Source of the DNA: a virus
Virus record (IMG/VR): IMGVR_UViG_3300037508_002051
Coordinates: 1-23,899 of that record
Length of the DNA: 23,899 nucleotides
Reading direction: 5' to 3' (one strand)
Both the position numbers and the translations under genes were made by a program. A model generated the notes under the pieces. It was not told the DNA's origin and did not search any database. It saw nothing but the letters and a program-made list of their open reading frames with translations. Position 1 is the first letter of the stretch; each line of letters opens with the position of its first letter. Of the stretch, positions 10,698 through 22,525 are shown piece after piece.

Positions 10698-10725
10698 ATT
10701 ATACTCTAATTCACTGTCGTGTCAA
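10698..10725 (-). promoter_or_regulatory. Strong sigma70-type promoter for the nucleotide-metabolism operon
   Basis: On the minus strand TTGACA (10725-10720) and TATAAT (10703-10698) are both perfect consensus hexamers, 16 bases apart. The -35 box lies in the last codons of the glycosyltransferase gene. The ATG of dCMP deaminase begins 7 bases after the -10 box, so the expected transcription start falls at or next to the start codon. It would drive dCMP deaminase and the genes down to dnaB, probably by host RNA polymerase. Confidence 0.75.
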
Positions 10726-11641
10726 CTGTTTTTTGTACGATGGCTGTTTTGCGAACGAAATCGTATGTTTGAACACGTTTGGGATTCATATGGTGCCATT
10801 CTATAGTAAAATTTTCTTTAGAGTCATCGAGAATTTTACCATAAACATTTAAATCTTCTTGTAAATAACAATCATTATTATATAATTTCACCATATGAAA
10901 AATACCATTTGGAGCTTTCTTATTTAAGATATTGATAGTTTTATGTTTGACTGTTGCAAACTTTAAATTATTATAGCCAATAATATATCCAAATATTCTT
11001 TCTAGAGCATGAGAATACGTTCCGTCGGTTTTTTCTTCAACTTTATTTATTTCTCTCGATAATAATTTTTGAAGAACATCTTGATATGGTATAAAATAAT
11101 TTTTAAATATGTTTGTTTTGCTCATGAACATATTACCACCAAAAAAAGAATAATTTTTGATATTATCATAATCAATTTTTAGTATATCACATATTTCTCT
11201 AATTTGTTTTGAGTGATAAGATTCGTTATCGCTAAGTAATAAGTTTTGATTTCCAATAGCCCCATACTCAGGAGACAAAATAGTCTTATAATTATGCCAA
11301 AAAATTTTTTTACTACCTAAAAAATCATGCAGTAGCACATGTCTCCATTCAACTTGATTGTACGCTCCTAATAAACTTTTTTTACTATGCAATTTAATAA
11401 AATATGGTTCTTTTACATTTGGTAATATTTGTAAAAAAGAAGCTACATCGGCTCCATAATTTTTATGAAAACTGATAGTTGTTTTAAAATTGTTTTTAGC
11501 AGAATGTACTATATCTTTTTGTTGGCCGTGATCTTCTGATAGAGCTAAATATAAATAGATATTATCTTTAAATGGGGATAGTAATTTTTTAAAATCTTTC
11601 CAAAGATCCGGATGATATAAATAAAGACACACCGCTATCAT
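10706..11641 (-). CDS. RgpF-like glycosyltransferase
   Basis: This 311-residue protein resembles rhamnan synthesis F (RgpF) family glycosyltransferases. The visible signature is KNYGADVASFL (60-70), YFIKLHSKKS (80-89), EWRHVLLHDFLGS (98-110), then SFFGGNMFMSK (about 164-174), which in this family lie around the sugar-nucleotide pocket. No signal or membrane segment is present, so it would act in the cytoplasm. It follows three Thr/Ser/Pro-rich virion-type proteins on the same strand. Sugar addition to those stalks, or to host surface polymers, is a reasonable inference but not shown. The ATG at 11641 has no clear ribosome site and lies 14 bp after the previous stop. Confidence 0.82.
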   Translation of the reverse strand: MIAVCLYLYHPDLWKDFKKLLSPFKDNIYLYLALSEDHGQQKDIVHSAKNNFKTTISFHKNYGADVASFLQILPNVKEPYFIKLHSKKSLLGAYNQVEWRHVLLHDFLGSKKIFWHNYKTILSPEYGAIGNQNLLLSDNESYHSKQIREICDILKIDYDNIKNYSFFGGNMFMSKTNIFKNYFIPYQDVLQKLLSREINKVEEKTDGTYSHALERIFGYIIGYNNLKFATVKHKTINILNKKAPNGIFHMVKLYNNDCYLQEDLNVYGKILDDSKENFTIEWHHMNPKRVQTYDFVRKTAIVQKTVDTTVN

Positions 11642-11655
11642 AGATTATTAATTTA

Positions 11656-13002
11656 TTAAGTTGAAAAACAAACATTTGTATTTTTTGTAGCAACATTGTA
11701 TATCCATCTTAAAAATCTTTCATTATTACATCCATATTTAACAAATGTATATTCTGGATATGCTGTAATAACTTTATTTACTTCCGATTCAACATTATTG
11801 AAATATTGGCCAAGACTGCCTGATTCGTCTATAAAAACTAGAATTCTTGATCCTGGAGGAGGAATTGTTTCCCAACGATTTCTATCTAGAAAACTATTAT
11901 TTTTTATCCAGTTATCGTCGAGTCTTGATCCATTAATTAAACACCGATATCTTGTATCTGTGGGGGTTCTAGGGGACCAAATAAAATTTTTAGGTCTAAT
12001 AGGACATAAACTAGGAGTATATGCTCCTTCTGGTTGAACAGGGAATAGTGGTTCTGGTACACATGATATGATTCGAAATCCATTAAAATTAACTGATCTT
12101 TTACAAAAAGAATGAAATATTAATATTTTATTAAAATCAAAGTTTGATGATATAGTATTAATAGCTGCTATATCTGTTTCCCACAATCCACTAGCGCCTC
12201 CTTGAGCATAATCTGTTGCTCTTGTTATTATTCCACTACTATCTTCGTATCTTGTTGGATATAATTGTCCTGCTTGAGCGCATTCTGCCCAACTATTGAA
12301 TTCAGAGTACAAAGTATATCCCCTCCAATTCAAAAGAGACGGAGGACCCGCCCATCTTACATATCCTTGTGGATTAATACATTCAGGATTTGTAGGATCC
12401 TGTAAGCATTGCCAATTATTTGATTCGTCAATAAACATTAAGATATAATCATTCGGTGTTATATTTAATGGTTGTGTTGGCGTTACTGTTGGGGTAACAG
12501 TTCTAGTTTGAGTTGTAGTAATAGTAATAGAAGGAGTTATGGTTTGTGTTGCACTAATAGTGGGACTAAGCGTTGGTGTCGGAGTAGCGCCACTGGTCGA
12601 TGATACAGTTGGCGTCTGAGAGTTGGTGGCTGTGATAGTCGGCGTAATCGTTTCTATCGGAGTATTTGTAGGGGTATTTGTAGGAGTGGAAGTTGCTGTG
12701 ACGGTATTTGTTGGAGTAATTGTTTGAGTGACTGTATTTGTCGGGGTTGCTGTCGTAGTAATTGTATTCGTTGGGGTGGCTGTTGGGGTAATTGTATTTG
12801 TAGGAGTGACTGTCGGAGTAACTGTGTTTGTGGGAGTGACTGTCGGAGTAACTGTGTTTGTGGGAGTGACTGTCGGAGTAACTGTGTTTGTGGGAGTTAT
12901 GGTTGCTGTAAGTGTAGTGGTAGGAGTATAAGTTGGTGTTATTGTTGGGGTTATAGTTGGTGTAGAAGACGGTATTATTTCACAACATTTTATATTTTGC
13001 AT
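11656..13002 (-). CDS. Thr/Pro-stalk protein with VWA-like MIDAS motif
   Basis: This 448-residue protein starts with MQNIKCCEIIPSS, followed by a Thr/Pro-rich stalk (about 12-178) of TPTNTVTPTV-type repeats and a Cys-containing globular part (about 180-448). Near the C-terminus, RILVFIDESGSLGQ (386-399) matches the D-x-S-x-S MIDAS motif of von Willebrand A domains. A similar strand YILMFIDESNNW (186-197) opens the globular part, so it may be a duplicated or split fold. Eight or more cysteines suggest disulfides outside the cell. The N-terminal KCC-x-IIPS motif is shared with the 1102-residue protein at 17963-21271. Likely a virion surface fibre or decoration protein. No clear ribosome site upstream. 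Confidence 0.85.
   Translation of the reverse strand: MQNIKCCEIIPSSTPTITPTITPTYTPTTTLTATITPTNTVTPTVTPTNTVTPTVTPTNTVTPTVTPTNTITPTATPTNTITTTATPTNTVTQTITPTNTVTATSTPTNTPTNTPIETITPTITATNSQTPTVSSTSGATPTPTLSPTISATQTITPSITITTTQTRTVTPTVTPTQPLNITPNDYILMFIDESNNWQCLQDPTNPECINPQGYVRWAGPPSLLNWRGYTLYSEFNSWAECAQAGQLYPTRYEDSSGIITRATDYAQGGASGLWETDIAAINTISSNFDFNKILIFHSFCKRSVNFNGFRIISCVPEPLFPVQPEGAYTPSLCPIRPKNFIWSPRTPTDTRYRCLINGSRLDDNWIKNNSFLDRNRWETIPPPGSRILVFIDESGSLGQYFNNVESEVNKVITAYPEYTFVKYGCNNERFLRWIYNVATKNTNVCFST
12803..12892. repeat. 30-bp tandem repeat, three exact copies
   Basis: Three identical 30 bp units in the stalk of the MIDAS-motif protein, each coding for the ten-residue unit TNTVTPTVTP. Degenerate relatives continue on both sides. 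Confidence 0.9.
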
Positions 13003-13017
13003 AAATATAAGACTATT

Positions 13018-16000
13018 TTAGGGAATAAATTGAATACTTTGTCCGCCAACATATGGCGATTGTGTCGGAGTAATTGTTGCGGTAATCGTTGGTGTTATTG
13101 TTTGAGTAATGGTTGGCGAAATACTAGGAGTAACTGTTGGGGATGCGCTAGGCGTTTCTGTTGGAGTAACTGTTGGGGATGCGCTAGGTGTTTCTGTTGG
13201 AGTAACTGTTGGGGATGCGCTAGGCGTTTCTGTTGGAGTAACTGTTGGGGATGCGCTAGGTGTTTCTGTTGGAGTAACTGTTGGGGATGCGCTAGGCGTT
13301 TCTGTTGGAGTAACTGTTGGGGATGCGCTAGGCGTTTCTGTTGGAGTAACTGTTGGGGATGCGCTAGGTGTTTCTGTTGGAGTAACTGTTGGGGATGCAC
13401 TAGGTGTTTCTGTTGGAGTAACTGTTGGGGATGCGCTAGGTGTTTCTGTTGGAGTAACTGTTGGGGATGCGCTAGGCGTTTCTGTTGGAGTAACTGTTGG
13501 GGATGCGCTAGGTGTTTCTGTTGGAGTAACCGTTGGTGACACACTATTTGTTGGAGTAGCCGTTGGTGACACACTATTTGTTGGAGTAGCCGTTGGTGAT
13601 TCTGTTGGCGTGGCTGTTAATGATGATGTTGGCGTCGGAGATAAGCCTTCAGTTGGTGTTATGGTTTGAGTAATAGTAGGAGTAATAGACGGTGTTTGTG
13701 TTGGGGTAGGAGTAAACAAGCAACTAATATTCAAATTATTAGGCAGACTAGTAGAGCAAATACTGTTGATGATTAATCTAGCATCGCCACTATTATTTGC
13801 ACATACTGGTTCTGGTATGCTGTCATATTGTGTGCTATATTCCCAATATCCGCTATTCCCCCACCCATTTTTTCGTGGACTATAATACGCTGCTTTATAC
13901 CATTCATTGAGATTTGGAATAGTATAAGAACCACTATTGTGAGGAACTATATTTAAAGCGCTGTGTATATTATTAGATATAGAGCCGCTTATTGTATAAG
14001 ATCCGTTTTCGGTAGTAAAAGCATTTGGCGTAATACCATCATTGTTTAATGTCTGATATCCAGTAGGCTGTCCATTATGTAGCCAGTTACAATATCTTGC
14101 GGCATTAAGCCAAGATATATAATTAACAGGTTTATTACTAAAATTTATTTTTGGTTCATAAGAATAAGGGGCGGTTAATCCTATCCTTAATATTCCTCCA
14201 TAAGGATCTCCAGACATAGCAGTATTGTATAGATTATATGTATCATATGTTGCGACACTATTTAAAAATTCTATATAATTACAATTAGTAATAAGATGTT
14301 TATTTATTTGATAAAAATAATTAACTGATCCTAATTCATTTATTGGGTCCGCTATATTGCCCGTATCGTTTACTGTTACAAAACTAGATAAATTTAAAGG
14401 ATTTCCTGTTGTTACTATTCGTAATCCTATGTTTTCACCAAAATCTGGTATTTCTATTTGTTCTACATCTTTAATACTACTACTATCTGTTTCAAAGTCA
14501 CCTCCCAATATAATAACTAAATCATTAAAAAAAACAATTTCTGCGACATTTCCATTTTGATCATATGTTCCATAATAACTTGGTCCACCGTTACTTCCAA
14601 CGGTTGTAACATTTCCACTTACGCTGCTATTCCAGTTGCCAGATGTTGCAAAATTAATTGTATTAGATAAAGGGGCATATTCTGCTGGTGTTGATGTTAT
14701 TGTTGGTGTAGGAGTTGATGACTGTGTTGGTGTGAGAGATACAGATAAGGATGGGGTCAATGTGTTTGTTGGAGTGACCGTTTGAGTTTCTGTGGGTGTT
14801 GAGGTTAGTGTCTGTGTTATTGTAGATGTCGGGGTAGTAGTGGGAGTCTCCGTCGGGGTTGGAGTAGAAGTTGCTCCGGATGTTGGTGTTGGCGTGTTAG
14901 TTTCGGTTATTGTTGGAGTTATGCTTTCTGTCGGTGTCGGTGTTGGAGTTATGCTTTCTGTCGGCGTTAGCGTTGGAGTTGCTGTTGGGCTTTCTGTTGG
15001 GGTTGGTGTCGTGGTTTCCGTTGGAGTTGGTGTTTGGGTTTCTGTCGGAGTAACTGTTGGAGTTTCTGTCGGAGTAACTGTTGGAGTTTCTGTCGGAGTA
15101 ACTGTTGGGGTTTCTGTTGGAGTAACTGTTGGAGTTTCTGTCGGAGTTGCTGTTGGGGTTTCTGTTGGAGTTTCGGACGGTGTCAGAGTCGGGGTTTCTG
15201 TAGAAGTTGTTGTCGGCGAAGCATTTGGGGTTATGGTTGATGTAATGGTTGGTGTTAAAGTAGGAGTTGATGTGTTTGTGGTGGTGATTGTAGGACTAAC
15301 AGTAACAGAAGATGTAATTGTATTTGTAACGGTATTGGTTGGAGTTAATGTTGTTGTTGGTGTAAAAGTCGGAGTGATTGTTGGTGTTGTTGTGATTGTT
15401 GGGGTCAGGGTTGTTGTTGGTGTTTGACTTACAAGTATAGAATTTTCAAAAACATTAATAATTTTATTATTTAGTTTAGCACCAGACAAAATAAATCCTT
15501 TATATTTAACAATAATATCTTCTCCACCATATACTCTAGAATCATAAATTAATTGACCAAGTTTAATTCTATCGCATGAAGTTGTTGTGACGGTTGGTGT
15601 TACTGTTGGTGTTTTGGTTATGGTCGGAGTTATTGTCGGTGTTATGCTCGATGTAGGCGTAACAGTAGGGGTTCTAGTTAATGTTCTCGTAGGTGTTCTA
15701 GTAATAGTGGTAGTGGTTGTTGGTGTTCTGGTTGGAGTACTTGTTTTGGTGGGAGTTATACTATTAGTAATTGTTAATGTTGGAGTAACTGTTGGTGTTC
15801 GCGTTACTGTTTCTGTGGGTGTAATAGTTTGAGAAGGAGTGAAAGATGGTGTAAAAGTTGGAGTAACAGTATTGGTAGGACTAATGCTAGGCGTTGGAGT
15901 AGGACTAATACACACATTAGGAGAATCTATAGTATTACTAGCTACGCCAATAGAATTTGCTGAAACTTTATCTGGGACAGAGTCGCTTTGAGTGGCATAT

Positions 16001-16854
16001 GTCCAGTAACCTGGACCAGAACCATTTTTATCTAGTGTATAATAAGCAGCCTTGTGCCATTCATTTCTATTAGGTAGCCAGTATAGATTTTTATTATCGG
16101 GATTTGGAACAGACGAAGGATTGGCAAAATTAAGAAGATAAACACCGTTCTCAGTTGAATTTGAACTAAGTCCAAAAGTTTGGGGTCTGTTATTATATAA
16201 CCAATTAATATATCTAGCGGCATCATACCAGTTTACAAAATTAACTGGCTTATCATCCATATTAGCTTTAACAGAATAGACTGAGTTAGGACTGGAACCA
16301 TTAACAGAAATACCGCCCCTTGGACTTGAGGTCATATTACTATTATACGGCCAAATATTACTATTTATTTGAGCATCGGTTCCGCTGGCAGCAACAGCAT
16401 TTAAAAATGACACATACTCAGCATTTGTTATTTCATATTTGGAAATTTGAAAATCATAACTAACAGATCCTAGATTGCTTCTTGTAAAATCAACACTATT
16501 ATTAGCACCAGAAATAGTAACAAAGCTTGAATGCGCGATGTTTAAGGAGCTATGTGCTGCGACCCTAAAACCTATTGTTTCGTTTCTATTTTCACGAGAA
16601 ATAGATCCAGATGTTACTAAAAAAGACTCGTCCAAAGATGAAAATCCACCACCATATAAAACTATTCTACCATTATCTTGATAGTCTATAATTTCTCTAA
16701 CGTTGCCATTTTGATCATATGTTCCAAAAAAACTAGGACCACCGTTACTACCTACGCTGGTAACATTTCCATTTTGACCGTTCCAATCGGCGTAGGATGC
16801 ATAGTTCGCACTATTACAGTATCCTATAATAGAGTAAGATGGAGGATTTGACAT
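13018..16854 (-). CDS. Giant stalk protein with two permuted SUMF1/FGE-like modules
   Basis: This 1278-residue protein has the order: FGE-like module 1 (about 12-305), Thr/Pro stalk (315-425), a small 50-residue domain (427-477), a long Thr/Pro stalk (478-722), FGE-like module 2 (727-1025), and a stalk ending in 11 copies of a 12-residue repeat (about 1110-1242). Each module shows SUMF1/FGE motifs in swapped order: GTYDQNGNV, a GG strand and GFR come first, then a KYEITN-like strand, a PVNFVNW-like strand, a WLPNRNEW-like strand and a YWTYATQSD-like strand. The paired catalytic cysteines of true formylglycine-generating enzymes are missing, so a binding or structural role is likely. A tail-fibre or adhesin role fits. 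ATG at 16854 follows AGGA. Confidence 0.88.
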   Translation of the reverse strand: MSNPPSYSIIGYCNSANYASYADWNGQNGNVTSVGSNGGPSFFGTYDQNGNVREIIDYQDNGRIVLYGGGFSSLDESFLVTSGSISRENRNETIGFRVAAHSSLNIAHSSFVTISGANNSVDFTRSNLGSVSYDFQISKYEITNAEYVSFLNAVAASGTDAQINSNIWPYNSNMTSSPRGGISVNGSSPNSVYSVKANMDDKPVNFVNWYDAARYINWLYNNRPQTFGLSSNSTENGVYLLNFANPSSVPNPDNKNLYWLPNRNEWHKAAYYTLDKNGSGPGYWTYATQSDSVPDKVSANSIGVASNTIDSPNVCISPTPTPSISPTNTVTPTFTPSFTPSQTITPTETVTRTPTVTPTLTITNSITPTKTSTPTRTPTTTTTITRTPTRTLTRTPTVTPTSSITPTITPTITKTPTVTPTVTTTSCDRIKLGQLIYDSRVYGGEDIIVKYKGFILSGAKLNNKIINVFENSILVSQTPTTTLTPTITTTPTITPTFTPTTTLTPTNTVTNTITSSVTVSPTITTTNTSTPTLTPTITSTITPNASPTTTSTETPTLTPSETPTETPTATPTETPTVTPTETPTVTPTETPTVTPTETPTVTPTETQTPTPTETTTPTPTESPTATPTLTPTESITPTPTPTESITPTITETNTPTPTSGATSTPTPTETPTTTPTSTITQTLTSTPTETQTVTPTNTLTPSLSVSLTPTQSSTPTPTITSTPAEYAPLSNTINFATSGNWNSSVSGNVTTVGSNGGPSYYGTYDQNGNVAEIVFFNDLVIILGGDFETDSSSIKDVEQIEIPDFGENIGLRIVTTGNPLNLSSFVTVNDTGNIADPINELGSVNYFYQINKHLITNCNYIEFLNSVATYDTYNLYNTAMSGDPYGGILRIGLTAPYSYEPKINFSNKPVNYISWLNAARYCNWLHNGQPTGYQTLNNDGITPNAFTTENGSYTISGSISNNIHSALNIVPHNSGSYTIPNLNEWYKAAYYSPRKNGWGNSGYWEYSTQYDSIPEPVCANNSGDARLIINSICSTSLPNNLNISCLFTPTPTQTPSITPTITQTITPTEGLSPTPTSSLTATPTESPTATPTNSVSPTATPTNSVSPTVTPTETPSASPTVTPTETPSASPTVTPTETPSASPTVTPTETPSASPTVTPTETPSASPTVTPTETPSASPTVTPTETPSASPTVTPTETPSASPTVTPTETPSASPTVTPTETPSASPTVTPTETPSASPTVTPSISPTITQTITPTITATITPTQSPYVGGQSIQFIP
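13139..13534. repeat. 36-bp tandem repeat, 11 copies
   Basis: Eleven in-register 36 bp units code for the 12-residue unit SPTVTPTETPSA near the C-terminus of the giant stalk protein. Differences between copies are single-base third-position changes that leave the protein unchanged. Two more degenerate units follow. Confidence 0.95.
13780..14676 (-). other. FGE-like module 2, halves in swapped order
   Basis: Codons about 727-1025 of the giant stalk protein. The part with VGSNGGPSYYGTYDQNGNV, ILGGDF and NIGLRIV precedes the part with NKHLITNCNYIEFLN, NKPVNYISW, IPNLNEWYKAAYY and YWEYSTQYD. In ordinary SUMF1/FGE domains the second set comes first. Confidence 0.7.
15039..15158. repeat. 24-bp tandem repeat, about five copies
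   Basis: Near-identical 24 bp units coding for TPTETPTV in the central stalk of the giant protein, grading into looser Thr/Pro repeats on both sides. They share the GGAGTAACTGTTGG core with the 36 bp array. Confidence 0.85.
15940..16821 (-). other. FGE-like module 1, halves in swapped order
   Basis: Codons about 12-305 of the giant stalk protein. VGSNGGPSFFGTYDQNGNV, VLYGGGF and TIGFRVA come first, a joint of about ten residues follows, then KYEITNAEY, KPVNFVNWYDAARY, YWLPNRNEWHKAAYY and GYWTYATQSD. Confidence 0.72.
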
Positions 16855-16866
16855 TCATATTCCTAG

Positions 16867-17115
16867 TTATTTATTTATGAATTTATTGTATAATATTAAA
16901 CTTAATACTCCTCCAGCAACGCCCATAAATATTCCAGACGGGCTAAGACTATCATATGTTCCTAGAATATAAAGTACTGCCCCACCCATGTATGAGCCAG
17001 CAACACCAAGAGCAACAGTTTGAAAAAAACCTAATCGCAAATTAACAGGAACTATGGCCTTTGCTAAAGAACCAACAAATAAACCATATACAATCCAGAT
17101 TAGAAGATTAAACAT
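16867..17115 (-). CDS. GlsB/YeaQ/YmgE-type small membrane protein
   Basis: This 82-residue inner-membrane protein has three hydrophobic helices (about 3-22, 31-51, 60-77) and the Gly-rich pattern of the transglycosylase-associated family: GLFVGSLAKAIVP, then LGVAGSYMGGAVLYILG, then GIFMGVAGGVLSLILYN. The family name does not mean enzymatic activity; the function is unknown in bacteria too. In a phage, a small multi-helix protein like this could be a holin-like or envelope-stress factor. GGAGG lies 6 bases before the ATG at 17115, which overlaps the previous gene's end by 8 bp. Confidence 0.83.
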   Translation of the reverse strand: MFNLLIWIVYGLFVGSLAKAIVPVNLRLGFFQTVALGVAGSYMGGAVLYILGTYDSLSPSGIFMGVAGGVLSLILYNKFINK

Positions 17116-17497
17116 TGGTAGCCTCCAGAAGTGTTAAAGATTCTTCGTCATTAAGATTCTTACCAACTTCCATGATGGCATTTTTTAAACTAACTCCGTA
17201 TTGTTGATATTGTTTTTTACTCAAATGTTGTTTTAATATTTTGTTTAGTCTATAGTTATTTAACCAGCTATCTTTAATTGTTAAATTAACTATAGTATGT
17301 CTAAGATCTAAAGCCTCGCTCATTTTATCATTCTTACGTCTTTTGCTTCTACATTCTTGAATTACTCTTATAAGACTTAATATTACTCCAATTACTATAA
17401 TTATAGTTATAGGATCAAATCCATAATTATTATTTTTAATATTCGCTTTGTCTATGACTTTTTGGGCAATGTGTTCTAGATTAGGATTTAATTGCAT
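17108..17497 (-). CDS. Single-pass membrane protein, unknown function
   Basis: This is a 129-residue protein from ATG 17497. The longer frame begins with TTG at 17536 inside the preceding gene and is less likely. One membrane helix lies at about 29-46 (PITIIIVIGVILSLIRVI), followed by a strongly basic stretch (CRSKRRKNDK) and a helical soluble tail of about 75 residues. The charge distribution puts the tail in the cytoplasm. No family recognised. It sits in a cassette of four small membrane or exported proteins between the two giant virion-type genes. Confidence 0.75.
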   Translation of the reverse strand: MQLNPNLEHIAQKVIDKANIKNNNYGFDPITIIIVIGVILSLIRVIQECRSKRRKNDKMSEALDLRHTIVNLTIKDSWLNNYRLNKILKQHLSKKQYQQYGVSLKNAIMEVGKNLNDEESLTLLEATNV

Positions 17498-17510
17498 ATT
17501 TAATCTTTCG

Positions 17511-17741
17511 TTAGGGTAAACAATATCCACAATCAACCATTTTTATTCCATCTCCACTTAGATATTTTCCGCTTCCTTTACAAACTGGGCATTCTTTTCT
17601 TTTATATTTTTTAATTGGTTCATTCCCAATATTTTTAACTATAGCTCCGGATAGAATAACAGGAGCAGTAGATGCTCCATTGTATTTTATTGATGTGAAA
17701 AATACCGACGCAAATAAAATTGATAATATTAGTTTATTCAT
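17511..17741 (-). CDS. Small exported protein with DnaJ-type CxxCxGxG zinc motif
   Basis: This 76-residue protein has an N-terminal signal-like segment (KLILSILFASVFFTSI, residues 3-18) with a possible cleavage region near ASTAP. A basic stretch KKYKRKE follows, then CPVCKGSGK (C51, C54) and CGYC (C71, C74). One CxxCxGxG plus one CxxC makes a single DnaJ-like zinc site. Such a site is usually cytoplasmic, so its place behind an export signal is odd. The segment could instead be an uncleaved anchor. The start overlaps the preceding stop as ATGA at 17741-17738. Confidence 0.78.
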   Translation of the reverse strand: MNKLILSILFASVFFTSIKYNGASTAPVILSGAIVKNIGNEPIKKYKRKECPVCKGSGKYLSGDGIKMVDCGYCLP

Positions 17742-17920
17742 TTTTTAATTCTTGGAAATAATGGCTTACGTTTTAATGGTGGTTTTGGAATAGGAGGAAA
17801 AGGATTTATATCATCTAATTCCCTACTTTTTTTAGGTATTATGAGCTTCAATATATTTAGTATAAAGTTTAGTACTATACTAATTAATCTATTTAATGCT
17901 AATTTATCAAAAAAATTCAT
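17738..17920 (-). CDS. 60-residue membrane microprotein with proline-rich basic tail
   Basis: The N-terminal half holds a hydrophobic or amphipathic helix (LISIVLNFILNILKLIIP, about 12-29). The C-terminal half is PFPPIPKPPLKRKPLFPRIKK-like: proline-rich and strongly basic. This is compatible with a small membrane-active protein. No known family. It is preceded by a 42 bp gap with a promoter-like sequence and AAGG 8 bases before the ATG at 17920, making it the first gene of the small membrane cassette. Confidence 0.72.
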   Translation of the reverse strand: MNFFDKLALNRLISIVLNFILNILKLIIPKKSRELDDINPFPPIPKPPLKRKPLFPRIKK

Positions 17921-17942: not shown

Positions 17943-17970
17943 ATTATACACCAAATTATGTTTTATACAA
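17943..17970 (-). promoter_or_regulatory. Possible promoter for the small membrane-protein cassette
   Basis: A perfect TATAAT (17948-17943) lies 16 bases after a weak -35 match TTGTAT (17970-17965), 22 bases before the ATG at 17920. The -10 region is part of a TGGTGTATAATAA box nearly repeated upstream of phoH. Plausible, but AT-rich sequence gives such matches easily. Confidence 0.4.
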
Positions 17971-20900
17971 TATAGTATGGCGAGTATAGTACAAGATGGG
18001 CGTTGCTCAGTGAATACCCAACAGTATTATGAATAGCTATTGCTGCTCTGAATTGACAATTAATTTGAGAACAACTAATATCTGAATTGAGAATATTCTG
18101 ACTTCTTTGATAAAGCAAGCCACCAAAAGACTGATTTGAATTGATGAGTTGTGCATTAATTAACGAAGAAAAAATTCTACTATTATCGATAGGAACAGAT
18201 GTTTTTGGATAAAGTATATTTTCTACCCAAAAGGTTATCACATATCCTTCATAATTATTAAAATTAATAAGATTTCTAATATCATATAAAAATGAAAACG
18301 TGTTATCATTTTTTGTTATATCCGATAAATAAAAAGGATTTATAGGCATAGGCGTTTTTGTCGGTGTTGGCGTTGTAGTTGGAGTTGGTGTGACTAATGG
18401 TTTGTTATAAATAAATATTGCATCATTTTTAGCTATTGCTACTATTTTATTTCCATTAGAATTTATACATATGTCTTTCCAGTCTTTAATTCCAGGATCA
18501 TTAAATTCTTGAAATGTAGAGCCAAAATCGTTACTAATATATAATAAACCACCTTCATTTGCATTTTTAAATGTAGATATAACTAATGCATCTCCTTGTT
18601 CATTGGTGGCTATATTGGTTATTGGTCCTGTTGTAATAAAATTATCTATTTCTGTCCAAGTATTACCGCTATCAATACTTCTTACTAGAGCACCTCTATT
18701 ACCTGCATTGGCTGCTGCATATAGTCTAATAGGAGATGCTGCTACTGCTACCCAATATCTATCATAAATGTAAGGATTAGGTCTTAAATACCCAGTTCGT
18801 GAAATGCCATCAACTACAATACCTCCTCCTTGCCTAGCACTGATTGTTCTATATCGCTGTTCGCCTTGCGCTAGACCATAACTTGTAGATGTGAATGCTA
18901 GGCCACCTGTTTCTGTTAAATAGCTAGTTGCTACAAATTGAATATTTAGTGGATCATATGTCACTGTTGATGATCCCCAATCTAAATACCCTAATGTTTG
19001 ATTATTCTTTACATAGAAACCATATACTGCGGACTCAGGAGCTGGTCTTGATATATGAATCCATGTAGCATAATTAACATTTGGATCCGATGACAATTGC
19101 CATGTTGTGCCTCTATCGTAACTATAATAAATTGTTGAGTCTAGTGTACAGGCAACCATGACTAATCCATTGTGATCCATTGCTATATCTGACCATCGAG
19201 CAATAGTTGCTCTTTGAGTCCAATTAATTCCTCCATCTAAACTTATATAAATATAATCATTATTAGCGCAAGCTGCTATTTTAGTACCATCAGCCGATAT
19301 TGTTACTGCCGTCCAGTCTTTGATATTGTTATATATTGACCATCCGGGAACAAAAACTGACGGCATAGGAGTATGTGTTGGTGTTGGAGTAGCGGTTGTT
19401 GTTAGAGTAATAGTAGCGGTAGTAGTCGGGGTCCTAGTTGGTTCGCTAGTGAAGTTGGGCGTTGTTGTGATTGTTGGAGTAGGCGTTGGTTCGCTAGTGA
19501 AGTTGGGCGTTGTTGTGATTGTTGGAGTAGGCGTTGGTTCGCTAGTGAAGTTGGGCGTTGTTGTGGGAGTATTAGTATTTGTGGGCGTTAACGATGGATC
19601 TGGAATAGACGGTGTCGATACAGTTATATTGCAACAATAATTTCCTGCATTGTCTCCGTATGCACCATCATATATTCCGATGTATAGAGATCCAGATGTT
19701 TGGGCAATAAAAGTAATTTTTGAACCTATAACAAATATATCATTTAAATTTGATACAGTTAATAATGGTTGATTATTATTATCAATTTTAGCAATAGCAA
19801 CATTCCAATTACCATATATGGAATTATTTTTAAGAAAACCATCTGCATTAGTATTACAAATATTACTATATAAATAACATGTGGTGCAGCCTCTTGTTGT
19901 GATCTCAACAGTAGAGCCTTGTTCGATATAAATATTACTGTTTTTAAGAATAGGAATACCCCATCCGGCCCCAAGAGTGGCTGGTAGTTCTATTTCAGAA
20001 GATGTGCAGATGGTTGGTGTAAGAGGATCGCAAGGAATACTTGGAGGAGTGCGAGTAGGCGATAAAGTCGGAGTGTTTGTTGGGGTAGATGTAAGAGTTG
20101 TTGTTGGAGAAGGATATGGTCCACAAGGACCAGCAAAAATAATACCATCACCTGAGTTAAATTCTCTATTATATCTAGGTATAAACAAAGAACCATCATT
20201 TTGATTAATAGCAATATTTGGAATAATACATTTAGATAAATATGAAAAAATAGTAGAAACAATAGTATTAGTTGTAAGATTAATACCTATAATATATGTT
20301 TCTATATCAGTGCTTATATTATTATAGATGCCATCACCAGTACTAGTGGCATAGTATAAAATATTATTAGATGTATCAAAAAAAAGATTACCAATTGATC
20401 CTGAGTTTCCAAATACTAAAGGTATATTATCAATAATATTTAATGTAGATATATCATATGTTTTTATATATGAATTAATACCAATAATATTTTCATATAA
20501 AACATATAACAGATTATTATAAATATATATTTCTGTCCAATGACTAAGATCCAATATATTTGATTCACTTAGTTCATTATTAGTAGTATCAATTATACAT
20601 AATTTATTTTCATTGTTGCTATGAAATGATATATATAATTTATCATTTATCTCATCAATAGTTAAACTAGAAACTAGATTATTAGAAAAAGAAGATAAAA
20701 TATTTTCATTAGACGATATAATTGTATCAGATAAACAATCAATAGTATGAAGAACTAATTGATTAGAAATACTAGAGCGACTAATTGTATATATTTTATT
20801 AGTAGTTGAATTTATACAAATATTGGTTGGAAAACCTTTAGTTCCTAGTATTATATCATTAGAACCTATAGGAATAATTTTTATTACATGATATAAACTA

Positions 20901-21271
20901 TCGTCTAAAATTATAATACCTGGATTTTTACCATAATTAATAATATATGCTTTACTTAAATTTTCATTAATAACAGCATCGCCCAACTGCCATCCACTCT
21001 CATATGTGGTTCTAATTTTAGTTTTATAAACAGTATTAATTATCTCTATCTGATCATTACCAGAATCAATACAATAAAGAGTTTTACTATTATTATTAAA
21101 ATATAAATTACTAGAAGTTATTAAATTATTAGTTTCTGTTTGTCTAGAAAATAATAGTTCTGTTGTATGATAGCAAGATCCTAAAGCCGGAGGGGTTGGC
21201 GGGGGTATGGTCGTTGTTACTGTTGGACTAGGTATTATAGTACAACATTTTGATTTTTTGATATCGCTCAT
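17963..21271 (-). CDS. Modular adhesin: beta-propeller, LecA-like lectin and Asp-box propeller
   Basis: This 1102-residue protein starts MSDIKKSKCCTIIPSP. Residues 33-385 form repeated beta-blades with NxxxYYATS- and IDTTNN-like turns, as in YncE/NHL propellers. A short Thr/Pro linker leads to about 425-552, which ends in SLYIGIYDGAYGDNAGNY, closely resembling the calcium-binding loop of the LecA (PA-IL) galactose lectin (ligand candidates D535, D540, N541). A Thr/Pro linker with 16-residue repeats follows. Then an Asp-box propeller (640-957) has SLDGGINW, SYDRGTTW, SIDSGNTW and SNDFGSTF. A last linker and a 125-residue C-terminal domain close it. All parts suit binding of glycans on a host or surface. 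Sialidase catalytic residues are not recognisable. Confidence 0.87.
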   Translation of the reverse strand: MSDIKKSKCCTIIPSPTVTTTIPPPTPPALGSCYHTTELLFSRQTETNNLITSSNLYFNNNSKTLYCIDSGNDQIEIINTVYKTKIRTTYESGWQLGDAVINENLSKAYIINYGKNPGIIILDDSLYHVIKIIPIGSNDIILGTKGFPTNICINSTTNKIYTISRSSISNQLVLHTIDCLSDTIISSNENILSSFSNNLVSSLTIDEINDKLYISFHSNNENKLCIIDTTNNELSESNILDLSHWTEIYIYNNLLYVLYENIIGINSYIKTYDISTLNIIDNIPLVFGNSGSIGNLFFDTSNNILYYATSTGDGIYNNISTDIETYIIGINLTTNTIVSTIFSYLSKCIIPNIAINQNDGSLFIPRYNREFNSGDGIIFAGPCGPYPSPTTTLTSTPTNTPTLSPTRTPPSIPCDPLTPTICTSSEIELPATLGAGWGIPILKNSNIYIEQGSTVEITTRGCTTCYLYSNICNTNADGFLKNNSIYGNWNVAIAKIDNNNQPLLTVSNLNDIFVIGSKITFIAQTSGSLYIGIYDGAYGDNAGNYCCNITVSTPSIPDPSLTPTNTNTPTTTPNFTSEPTPTPTITTTPNFTSEPTPTPTITTTPNFTSEPTRTPTTTATITLTTTATPTPTHTPMPSVFVPGWSIYNNIKDWTAVTISADGTKIAACANNDYIYISLDGGINWTQRATIARWSDIAMDHNGLVMVACTLDSTIYYSYDRGTTWQLSSDPNVNYATWIHISRPAPESAVYGFYVKNNQTLGYLDWGSSTVTYDPLNIQFVATSYLTETGGLAFTSTSYGLAQGEQRYRTISARQGGGIVVDGISRTGYLRPNPYIYDRYWVAVAASPIRLYAAANAGNRGALVRSIDSGNTWTEIDNFITTGPITNIATNEQGDALVISTFKNANEGGLLYISNDFGSTFQEFNDPGIKDWKDICINSNGNKIVAIAKNDAIFIYNKPLVTPTPTTTPTPTKTPMPINPFYLSDITKNDNTFSFLYDIRNLINFNNYEGYVITFWVENILYPKTSVPIDNSRIFSSLINAQLINSNQSFGGLLYQRSQNILNSDISCSQINCQFRAAIAIHNTVGYSLSNAHLVLYSPYYIV
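19440..19564. repeat. 48-bp tandem repeat, about 2.6 copies
   Basis: Exact 48 bp units coding for the 16-residue unit EPTPTPTITTTPNFTS in the linker after the LecA-like domain. No base differs between the two full copies. Confidence 0.9.
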
Positions 21272-21277
21272 TATAGT

Positions 21278-21574
21278 TCAGCCTGTTGGTAGTGTTATAA
21301 TATTGAAATTACTTTCAAGAGTATTAATTCTACCTTCTAAAATTTGTATTTGACTATTAATTAAGGCTGAAGCCTGTTCTACGGTAGTATTTAGTAGAGC
21401 TATTGATTCAGGAGTTATTGTTGGAATATTTTGTGTTGTTGAATCACTATCATATTTGAATTCAATTAAAACTATAGTATTAGTATCTCTATTAAGAGCC
21501 CATTTTTGATTATCTGGTAAAGCTGGTAAATTAACACCTAGATTTGGAACCGGTACAAGTTGTGGTAAGCTCAT
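21278..21574 (-). CDS. Short coiled-coil protein preceding the adhesin
   Basis: This 98-residue protein has a proline-rich N-terminus (LPQLVPVPNLGVNLPALPDNQKWALN) and a C-terminal heptad-like helix (about 58-90, LLNTTVEQASALINSQIQILEGRINTL), suggesting a trimeric coiled coil. AAGGAT precedes the ATG at 21574. The stop is 6 bp before the adhesin gene, so the two are probably made together. A role as fibre adaptor, attachment protein or chaperone is possible. Family not recognised. Confidence 0.78.
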   Translation of the reverse strand: MSLPQLVPVPNLGVNLPALPDNQKWALNRDTNTIVLIEFKYDSDSTTQNIPTITPESIALLNTTVEQASALINSQIQILEGRINTLESNFNIITLPTG

Positions 21575-21589
21575 AATGTATCCTTAATA

Positions 21590-22525
21590 TTATATATTGT
21601 GTCCTAGATAGTCAAAACCATAATCTGGTAATTTTTGTAATGGAAATCCGTCAAAGTCGCTAAAAGCGTATGCCCCATTACCTTTTAACATACCGGCTGC
21701 TACATCTGCTTTTATTAAAAATGATCCGTCAGGTATTGGACCCCATGAAGGATGACCACCATCATTCCATTTACCCCAGCTATTCTGTACTAGAAAAGCT
21801 GGTTCACTACTAGTATCATCACAAGCAATCCATGCCATAGCATGAGCCCAAGAGCCTTGCGGTTTAGCAAAACCCTTACTGTCTCTTCGGCTACTAAAAC
21901 CATAGCTACTACAAACACTAATTCCATAACCGTTAGCAAGAGCATCTCGTGCTTCTTCTACTGTTCTAACCAAACTTACAGTTTTAACTTGATGATCGTT
22001 TGCAAGATCTATAACTTTGTCTGGTAAGCTACGACCACCCCATCCAGCACCTAACATACCTTGATATTTACTAAGATCAACAACGCCAGGGTAATTTTTT
22101 CTAACTAAGACACCACCATATTGGCTGACAAATTGTGCTGCTCTAGAACAACTCATTCCTTGTCCACCATGACCTCTTGCTCCGTATATTGCTTCTGTTG
22201 CGCCTCTTGCTATCCAACTTTCTTTATGTTTATCTACATCTATTTCTACAGCACGAGAAATATCTACAGCATTTCTAGTAGAGTGGCTTACACAGTCCCC
22301 TGTAACCTGGCGCTCATTATAAGGGTTCTTATCGAACTTTAAAACACTTTTGTATGGAGTAGATAATTTACCTTTACCGGTTCCAACAATTTTTTTGGCT
22401 CCGTCTCCAAAATAACCATACTTAGAATTTTCTAAAAGATTTTCGAATATATGCTCTTCCCAAAGACATCCCTGAAATCCATCTTTGTATAGTTTTAATA
22501 ATTGTTCAGGAGATAGTCTTGCCAT
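21590..22525 (-). CDS. Papain-like (C1 family) cysteine peptidase
   Basis: This 311-residue protein has the papain fold markers in order: Q73 and C78 in RQVTGDCVSHSTRN (oxyanion Gln and nucleophile), H228 in GSWAHAMAWIA, and N248 in FLVQNSWGKWN. SWGK and the following Gly-rich turn are typical of the family. There is no signal peptide, no membrane segment and no long propeptide (about 70 residues precede the catalytic core). Possible roles are maturation of virion proteins, injection-linked cleavage, or host protein breakdown. GAGGGA precedes the ATG at 22525, which overlaps the previous stop (TAATG). Confidence 0.9.
   Translation of the reverse strand: MARLSPEQLLKLYKDGFQGCLWEEHIFENLLENSKYGYFGDGAKKIVGTGKGKLSTPYKSVLKFDKNPYNERQVTGDCVSHSTRNAVDISRAVEIDVDKHKESWIARGATEAIYGARGHGGQGMSCSRAAQFVSQYGGVLVRKNYPGVVDLSKYQGMLGAGWGGRSLPDKVIDLANDHQVKTVSLVRTVEEARDALANGYGISVCSSYGFSSRRDSKGFAKPQGSWAHAMAWIACDDTSSEPAFLVQNSWGKWNDGGHPSWGPIPDGSFLIKADVAAGMLKGNGAYAFSDFDGFPLQKLPDYGFDYLGHNI

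Follow-up and report, generated by a model that had tools for sequence, protein, structure and literature searches.

The window analysed here is an entire IMG/VR record (IMGVR_UViG_3300037508_002051), a linear virus fragment of 23,899 bp. It encodes a DnaB-type helicase, a UvsX-like recombinase, a PhoH-like protein, NrdA, NrdB and a papain-like protein, together with a dCMP-deaminase-like protein identified by reading the sequence, and this gene set is compatible with a large tailed phage. Among named phages, the best match of NrdA is Agrobacterium phage Atu_ph07 (60%). The papain-like gene (21590-22525, minus strand; a weak Peptidase_C1 match) has 270 relatives in IMG/VR with 75-99% identity, on contigs that reach about 232 kb, and gave 0 matches among 50,697 phage records; it can be regarded as a marker for a widespread phage group. 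The conserved block of one relative has a head maturation protease gene at a distance of about 7 kb. Further along the minus strand, a small conserved ORF (17511-17741) carries a CPVCKGSGKY...CGYC motif resembling the zinc-binding repeats of DnaJ, and a 1278-aa stalk protein (13018-16854) contains two FGE-sulfatase-type (C-type-lectin-like) domains. The stalk of the latter holds a 36-bp tandem repeat (13127-13536; 11.4 copies, 97%), for which length variation is likely. An RgpF-like (rhamnan synthesis) protein (10706-11641, minus strand), with several homologues in relatives, adjoins the stalk genes, and glycan modification by the phage itself is possible. Two long ORFs on the plus strand (12724-13669 and 14792-15427) were rejected as genes, being mechanical shadows opposite Thr/Pro repeats.

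The protein at the centre of this study is encoded on the minus strand at 17963-21271 by ORF P0002, which starts with ATG and runs uninterrupted for 1102 codons. The sequence-only reading had described it as an adhesin in which a YncE-like propeller, a LecA-like lectin and an Asp-box propeller are linked by Thr/Pro stalks. The ORF is real, the Thr/Pro stretches do separate its folded parts, and each of the three named folds is supported by profiles, predicted structures or both. According to the translation, a short N-terminal motif, KCCTIIPSPT (residues 8-17; the core of the DNA pattern lies at 21222-21250), precedes a YncE/YVTN-like β-propeller region (residues 30-385, 20117-21184). A first Thr/Pro stalk (residues 386-425, 19997-20116) leads to the LecA-like jelly-roll domain (residues 426-554, 19610-19996), which includes a putative calcium loop, D535-GAYG-D540-N541 (19649-19669). 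The second stalk (residues 555-639, 19355-19609) holds a 48-bp tandem repeat (19437-19565; 2.7 copies, 100% identical). It is followed by a BNR/Sortilin-Vps10-like Asp-box propeller from residue 640 to about residue 956, where the last stalk begins (18362-19354), and by a C-terminal domain (residues 977-1102, 17966-18343) that gave no match in database searches. The first propeller region has a G+C content of 22.8%, compared with 33.1% for the window, and may have a separate, recent origin. Matches of the ORF to phrog_15511 were discounted because the low-complexity Thr/Pro stretches produce them.

Searched as a single sequence, residues 426-554 gave 0 matches in Pfam, the PDB, PHROGs, the phage records and viral_contigs, so that kinship with LecA could be demonstrated only by way of relatives. 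A search of 38 related phage contigs with the domain returned weak matches in a 2219-aa ORF and in an 1890-aa ORF. The latter (L089, 3951-9620, minus strand) is a stalk protein with DUF285 repeats, whose LecA-like domain (residues 897-1014) is inserted in an FGE-sulfatase-type domain and scores just below the PF07828 cut-off (22.0 against 22.5 bits, E = 1.7e-4). A profile built from five phage domains had as its top five PDB matches PllA (5.5e-7, over the full length) and four PA-IL-type entries. Combining 34 sequences into one profile gave PllA at 1.8e-13 and LecA at 3.1e-6.

The bacterial relatives point in the same direction. A motif scan of bacterial genomes yielded 76 loci, mostly from Acidobacteria, Planctomycetes and Anaerolineae, and a profile of 67 of these bacterial domains, from which the window protein had been left out, scored P0002 at 47.6 bits, the best of 2000 shuffled sequences reaching 9.5. 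As the bacterial set was chosen by its loop motif, conservation of the D/D/N residues within it is circular, and most of the score, 27.1 bits, comes from the last 31 residues of the domain. The loop segment SLYIGIYDGAYGDNAGNY lies at residues 528-545 of the protein. Domain residues 1-98, which lie outside the motif, contribute 10.1 bits, and these are the independent part of the score; as this part is modest, the predicted fold carries weight. Judged by these profiles, the resemblance to LecA is far beyond chance. The sequence-only reading had proposed a profile search of residues 420-555 against the LecA family, and the outcome was divided: the family profiles recognised the domain, and PF07828 itself did not, P0002 giving no match at the gathering cut-off. 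The domain is therefore filed as LecA-superfamily-like and not as a member of PF07828. A PF07828 search of the window and 34 relatives likewise found nothing, a weak negative in that it initially missed even the L089 domain, which was found by hmmscan. An early motif scan that matched an unrelated gene was discarded, and a second one, of viral sequences, gave no match.

For the fold, we used an AlphaFold2 model computed without templates from a 34-sequence alignment with LecA-like relatives, which reached a pLDDT of 88.9 and a pTM of 0.83. All nine Foldseek matches below 0.001 were to LecA, PllA or EclA-N, with an E-value to LecA of 9.1e-6. In VIA-align superpositions the model gave Z-scores of 13.6 with LecA and PllA and 13.1 with EclA (103-107 residues, 2.1-2.4 Å), while the next-best fold followed at a clear distance with a Z-score of 7.5. 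The structural match that the earlier reading had named as its check was thus found, and we regard the LecA-like fold of residues 426-554 as practically certain.

The same reading had placed D535, D540 and N541 at ligand positions, and the alignment with the LecA superfamily bears this out: the three residues are in register with the calcium-coordinating side chains of EclA and PllA. Compared with LecA, the calcium loop is short by two residues, as it is in the motif-chosen bacterial relatives, and the aligned galactose-contact stretch, in a part where the alignment is uncertain, reads NTNADG. The galactose contacts of LecA include a His and a Gln, neither of which occurs in this stretch. EclA coordinates its calcium through the Asp114, Asp121 and Asn122 side chains plus two oxygens of the main chain (PMC11875179). 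Its N-terminal domain, EclA-N, retains the site, although no sugar that it binds specifically has been identified (PMC11875179), and calcium ligands therefore do not predict galactose binding. Given the aligned ligands, the short loop, the NTNADG stretch and the EclA-N precedent, we consider calcium binding by the domain likely, glycan binding plausible and galactose specificity unsupported.

Could the domain then bind no sugar at all and serve, stabilised by calcium, in a structural role or in binding to proteins, leaving any host recognition to the propellers or the C-terminal domain? The apparently unconserved contact stretch, the shortened loop and the EclA-N precedent would all fit such a role, as would the L089 phage paralogue, in which a His replaces one aligned ligand Asp. 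On the other hand, the window copy retains all three side-chain ligands, and the solved family members with known ligands bind galactosides, so that we hold this alternative to be unlikely, if the strongest of those considered here.

The two propellers are supported by different kinds of evidence. The region from residue 640 to about residue 956 matches Sortilin-Vps10 in Pfam (E = 1.4e-9; 37.7 bits, cut-off 33), and BNR as well. Four Asp boxes of the form S/T-x-D-x-G-x-x-W/F, the number expected from the first inspection, were located at residues 677, 717, 865 and 913 (19220-19243, 19100-19123, 18656-18679 and 18512-18535, minus strand). Related phages also encode such Asp-box propellers, and there is hardly any doubt about the assignment. 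In the AlphaFold model of residues 30-385 (mean pLDDT 53.5), the blades are confident in about the first half, roughly residues 55-190, and low beyond. The top Foldseek match of this model is Escherichia coli YncE (E = 1.1e-8), which superimposes with a Z-score of 16.2, a value that many other propellers approach within one Z unit. The underlying alignment included two YVTN-type propellers from one related phage and may favour a YncE-like fold. Sequence evidence for this propeller is weak: a single-sequence scan gave no viral relatives, and the YVTN repeat, which gives a strong match in a LecA-like-domain protein of a related phage, had no match on the 1102-aa ORF. Based on the model, a YncE-like propeller is nevertheless the probable structure of this region.

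β-propellers are not glycan-binding folds in themselves, and Asp boxes are structural elements. The description of all three folds as glycan-type binding folds is consequently not supported for the propellers, and since the FRIP-type motif is absent, an identity as sialidase was rejected. The Asp-box propeller could still be catalytic in a glycan-degrading depolymerase for which the lectin serves as the targeting module; it matches the NCBIfam "F510_1955 family glycosylhydrolase" with an E-value of 2.4e-14, but with 53 bits where the cut-off demands 175. The missing FRIP-type motif, a best Pfam match to a binding propeller (Sortilin-Vps10) and a stalk protein of L193 that has this propeller type as its only head all speak against catalysis, and we judge this alternative very improbable and the least likely of those considered.

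Besides the folds, the N-terminus of the protein proved informative. The 1102-aa protein begins with MSDIKKSKCCTIIPSPT, and a second stalk protein of the window (11656-13002, minus strand), with an unrelated head, begins with MQNIKCCEIIPSSTPT and thus has the same anchor (motif at 12962-12990). The KCCxIIPS coding pattern occurs twice in the window, compared with 0.00 occurrences expected. In a scan of IMG/VR, the eight matches, which include several near-identical copies, were without exception N-termini of proteins with Thr/Pro stalks. Two of the eight, on L192 and L193, are proteins whose first 56 residues are common to both and whose heads, as read from the sequence, are an FGE-like domain in one and an Asp-box propeller in the other. 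We read this pair as direct evidence that heads are exchanged while anchor and stalk stay the same. Diversity-generating retroelements are known to target FGE/C-type-lectin folds, so such an element was considered as well; it was set aside, as there is no RVT_1 match in 30 relatives.

The gene lies in a variable slot of the genome (17940-21603, minus strand), as indicated by the comparison with relatives. In close relatives the flanking genes are conserved, and what varies is the stretch bounded by the papain-like gene and a group of small ORFs at about 16867-17920. Identity with L002 is 95.1% in the flank reaching to position 21481 and 84.6% in that from position 17955, and the stalk protein that they enclose is a different one; in L005 the site is empty, the two matching blocks adjoining directly. 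In a survey of 80 relatives, of which 74 were informative, the gap measured less than 500 bp, and the slot was hence empty, in 61, while 13 carried cargo; the insert of the window is the longest among the relatives surveyed. A module that varies against conserved flanks is a trait of phage receptor-binding proteins, and the 1102-aa protein displays it. As the slot is empty in most related phages, the protein is probably a swappable adhesin. This slot and the common N-terminal anchor are the new elements of the present analysis and lay outside the view of the sequence-only reading.

A second gene accompanies the stalk protein. A 98-aa ORF with a coiled-coil-like heptad pattern at its C-terminus (21278-21574, minus strand) has homologues beside or in the slot in L002 and L006. 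Wherever the slot holds a KCC stalk protein (the window and L002-L004), a homologue of this ORF precedes it, and in L006-L008 the homologue is kept with no stalk protein behind it. We take the two genes to be one cassette that occupies an accessory slot and is not essential, because most relatives do without it. Other cargo of the slot comprises a trypsin-like protein and proteins of 688-776 aa without a Pfam match (L046 10937-13264, L063 10937-13246 and L056 2702-4765). The latter contain a CC motif in their early part (CASCCPIQF, CIECCPSTF).

On the basis of its architecture and gene context, we propose that the 1102-aa protein is a modular phage virion adhesin whose heads are swapped, a reading to which we assign a probability of about 0.62. 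It is favoured by a slot that is swapped or empty, the common KCC anchor, the kinship with LecA, the aligned calcium ligands, the propellers, stalk proteins with variant heads in relatives, and the head maturation protease gene near the conserved block of one relative. Counting against it are the missing PF07828 match, the shortened calcium loop and apparently unconserved galactose-contact stretch, the dispensability of the cassette, and the fact that the ORF matched no virion protein family beyond one low-complexity match. In the proposed mechanism, the cysteine-containing KCCxIIPS motif is probably what attaches the chain to the virion, and the 98-aa coiled-coil-like partner may assist. The Thr/Pro stalks would keep the YncE-like propeller, the LecA-like jelly roll and the Asp-box propeller clear of the particle. 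The LecA-like domain would most likely hold calcium at D535, D540 and N541 and use it to bind a surface glycan, with the propellers contributing further contacts. With stalk gene and partner gene forming a cassette in an accessory slot, related phages would change heads by exchange.

Alternatively, the protein may be made by the infected cell and act off the virion, on the surface of the host cell or in the medium, for instance in phage exclusion or in altering cell adhesion. No virion attachment domain of known type was recognised in the 1102-aa protein, and the slot, whose neighbours are the papain-like gene on one side and small ORFs, some of membrane type, on the other, could belong to a lysis or late accessory region. 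However, that one genome encodes several stalk proteins sharing this anchor, and that heads are exchanged between relatives, suits receptor-binding proteins better, and the N-terminus has no obvious secretion signal or signal peptide-like start. We therefore consider a site of action away from the particle improbable and retain the virion adhesin as the preferred reading. More tentatively, at somewhat less than even odds, the common KCCxIIPS anchor and Thr/Pro stalk may act as a universal socket for unrelated heads (LecA-like lectin, YncE-like and Asp-box propellers, FGE/C-type-lectin-like folds) that are recombined at dedicated slots in a group of uncultured environmental phages. If so, these phages would possess a head-swapping display system on their particles, and LecA-type lectins would be described from viruses for the first time.

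Bacteria are the known source of LecA-type lectins. The domain resembles LecA and PllA in its jelly-roll fold (Z-score of 13.6), profile homology and three calcium side-chain positions. These lectins are small soluble tetramers, whereas the window domain is one part of a 1102-aa stalked phage protein, with the shorter calcium loop, an apparently unconserved galactose-contact stretch and no recognition by PF07828. EclA from Enterobacter cloacae (PMC11875179) shares the fusion of a LecA-type domain to other domains and the Asp/Asp/Asn calcium ligands, and its domain is similar with a Z-score of 13.1, but it has one extra CBM-like domain where the window protein has two propellers and Thr/Pro stalks and is encoded in a phage genome. 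With the bacterial LecA-like family of Acidobacteria, Planctomycetes and Anaerolineae, the likeness lies in the NDx4DNxG loop spacing and the overall profile; these proteins mostly have other architectures and were compared for the domain alone. Modular heads that vary between close relatives are also a feature of the BACON repeats of crAss-like phages and of tentaclins diversified by retroelements (PMC6949934, PMC10743442). Unlike these adhesins, the window protein combines a LecA-type head with a KCC anchor and a Thr/Pro stalk, and a search of 30 relatives found no reverse transcriptase of such an element. The layout of anchor, stalk and head thus offers a testable rule for changing recognition without a diversity-generating retroelement, and the LecA-like domain, if it binds glycans, would supply phage adsorption with a lectin head of a new kind.

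No paper on phage domains resembling LecA or PA-IL emerged from literature searches, and searches for similar stalked phage proteins found nothing relevant. The LecA-like domain had no clear match in PHROGs, in the 50,697 phage records (as a single sequence) or in BFVD (none with E ≤ 0.001). Within the related phages, many of whose contigs are fragments, this search found LecA-like domains in 4 of 34 contigs. In G027 they occur together with YncE, RCC1 and laminin-G-like domains, and in the near-identical G023 and G037 one lies within an FGE-like domain and another in a second ORF. In G017 the LecA-like domain is accompanied by a LamG-type part, recognised by eye.
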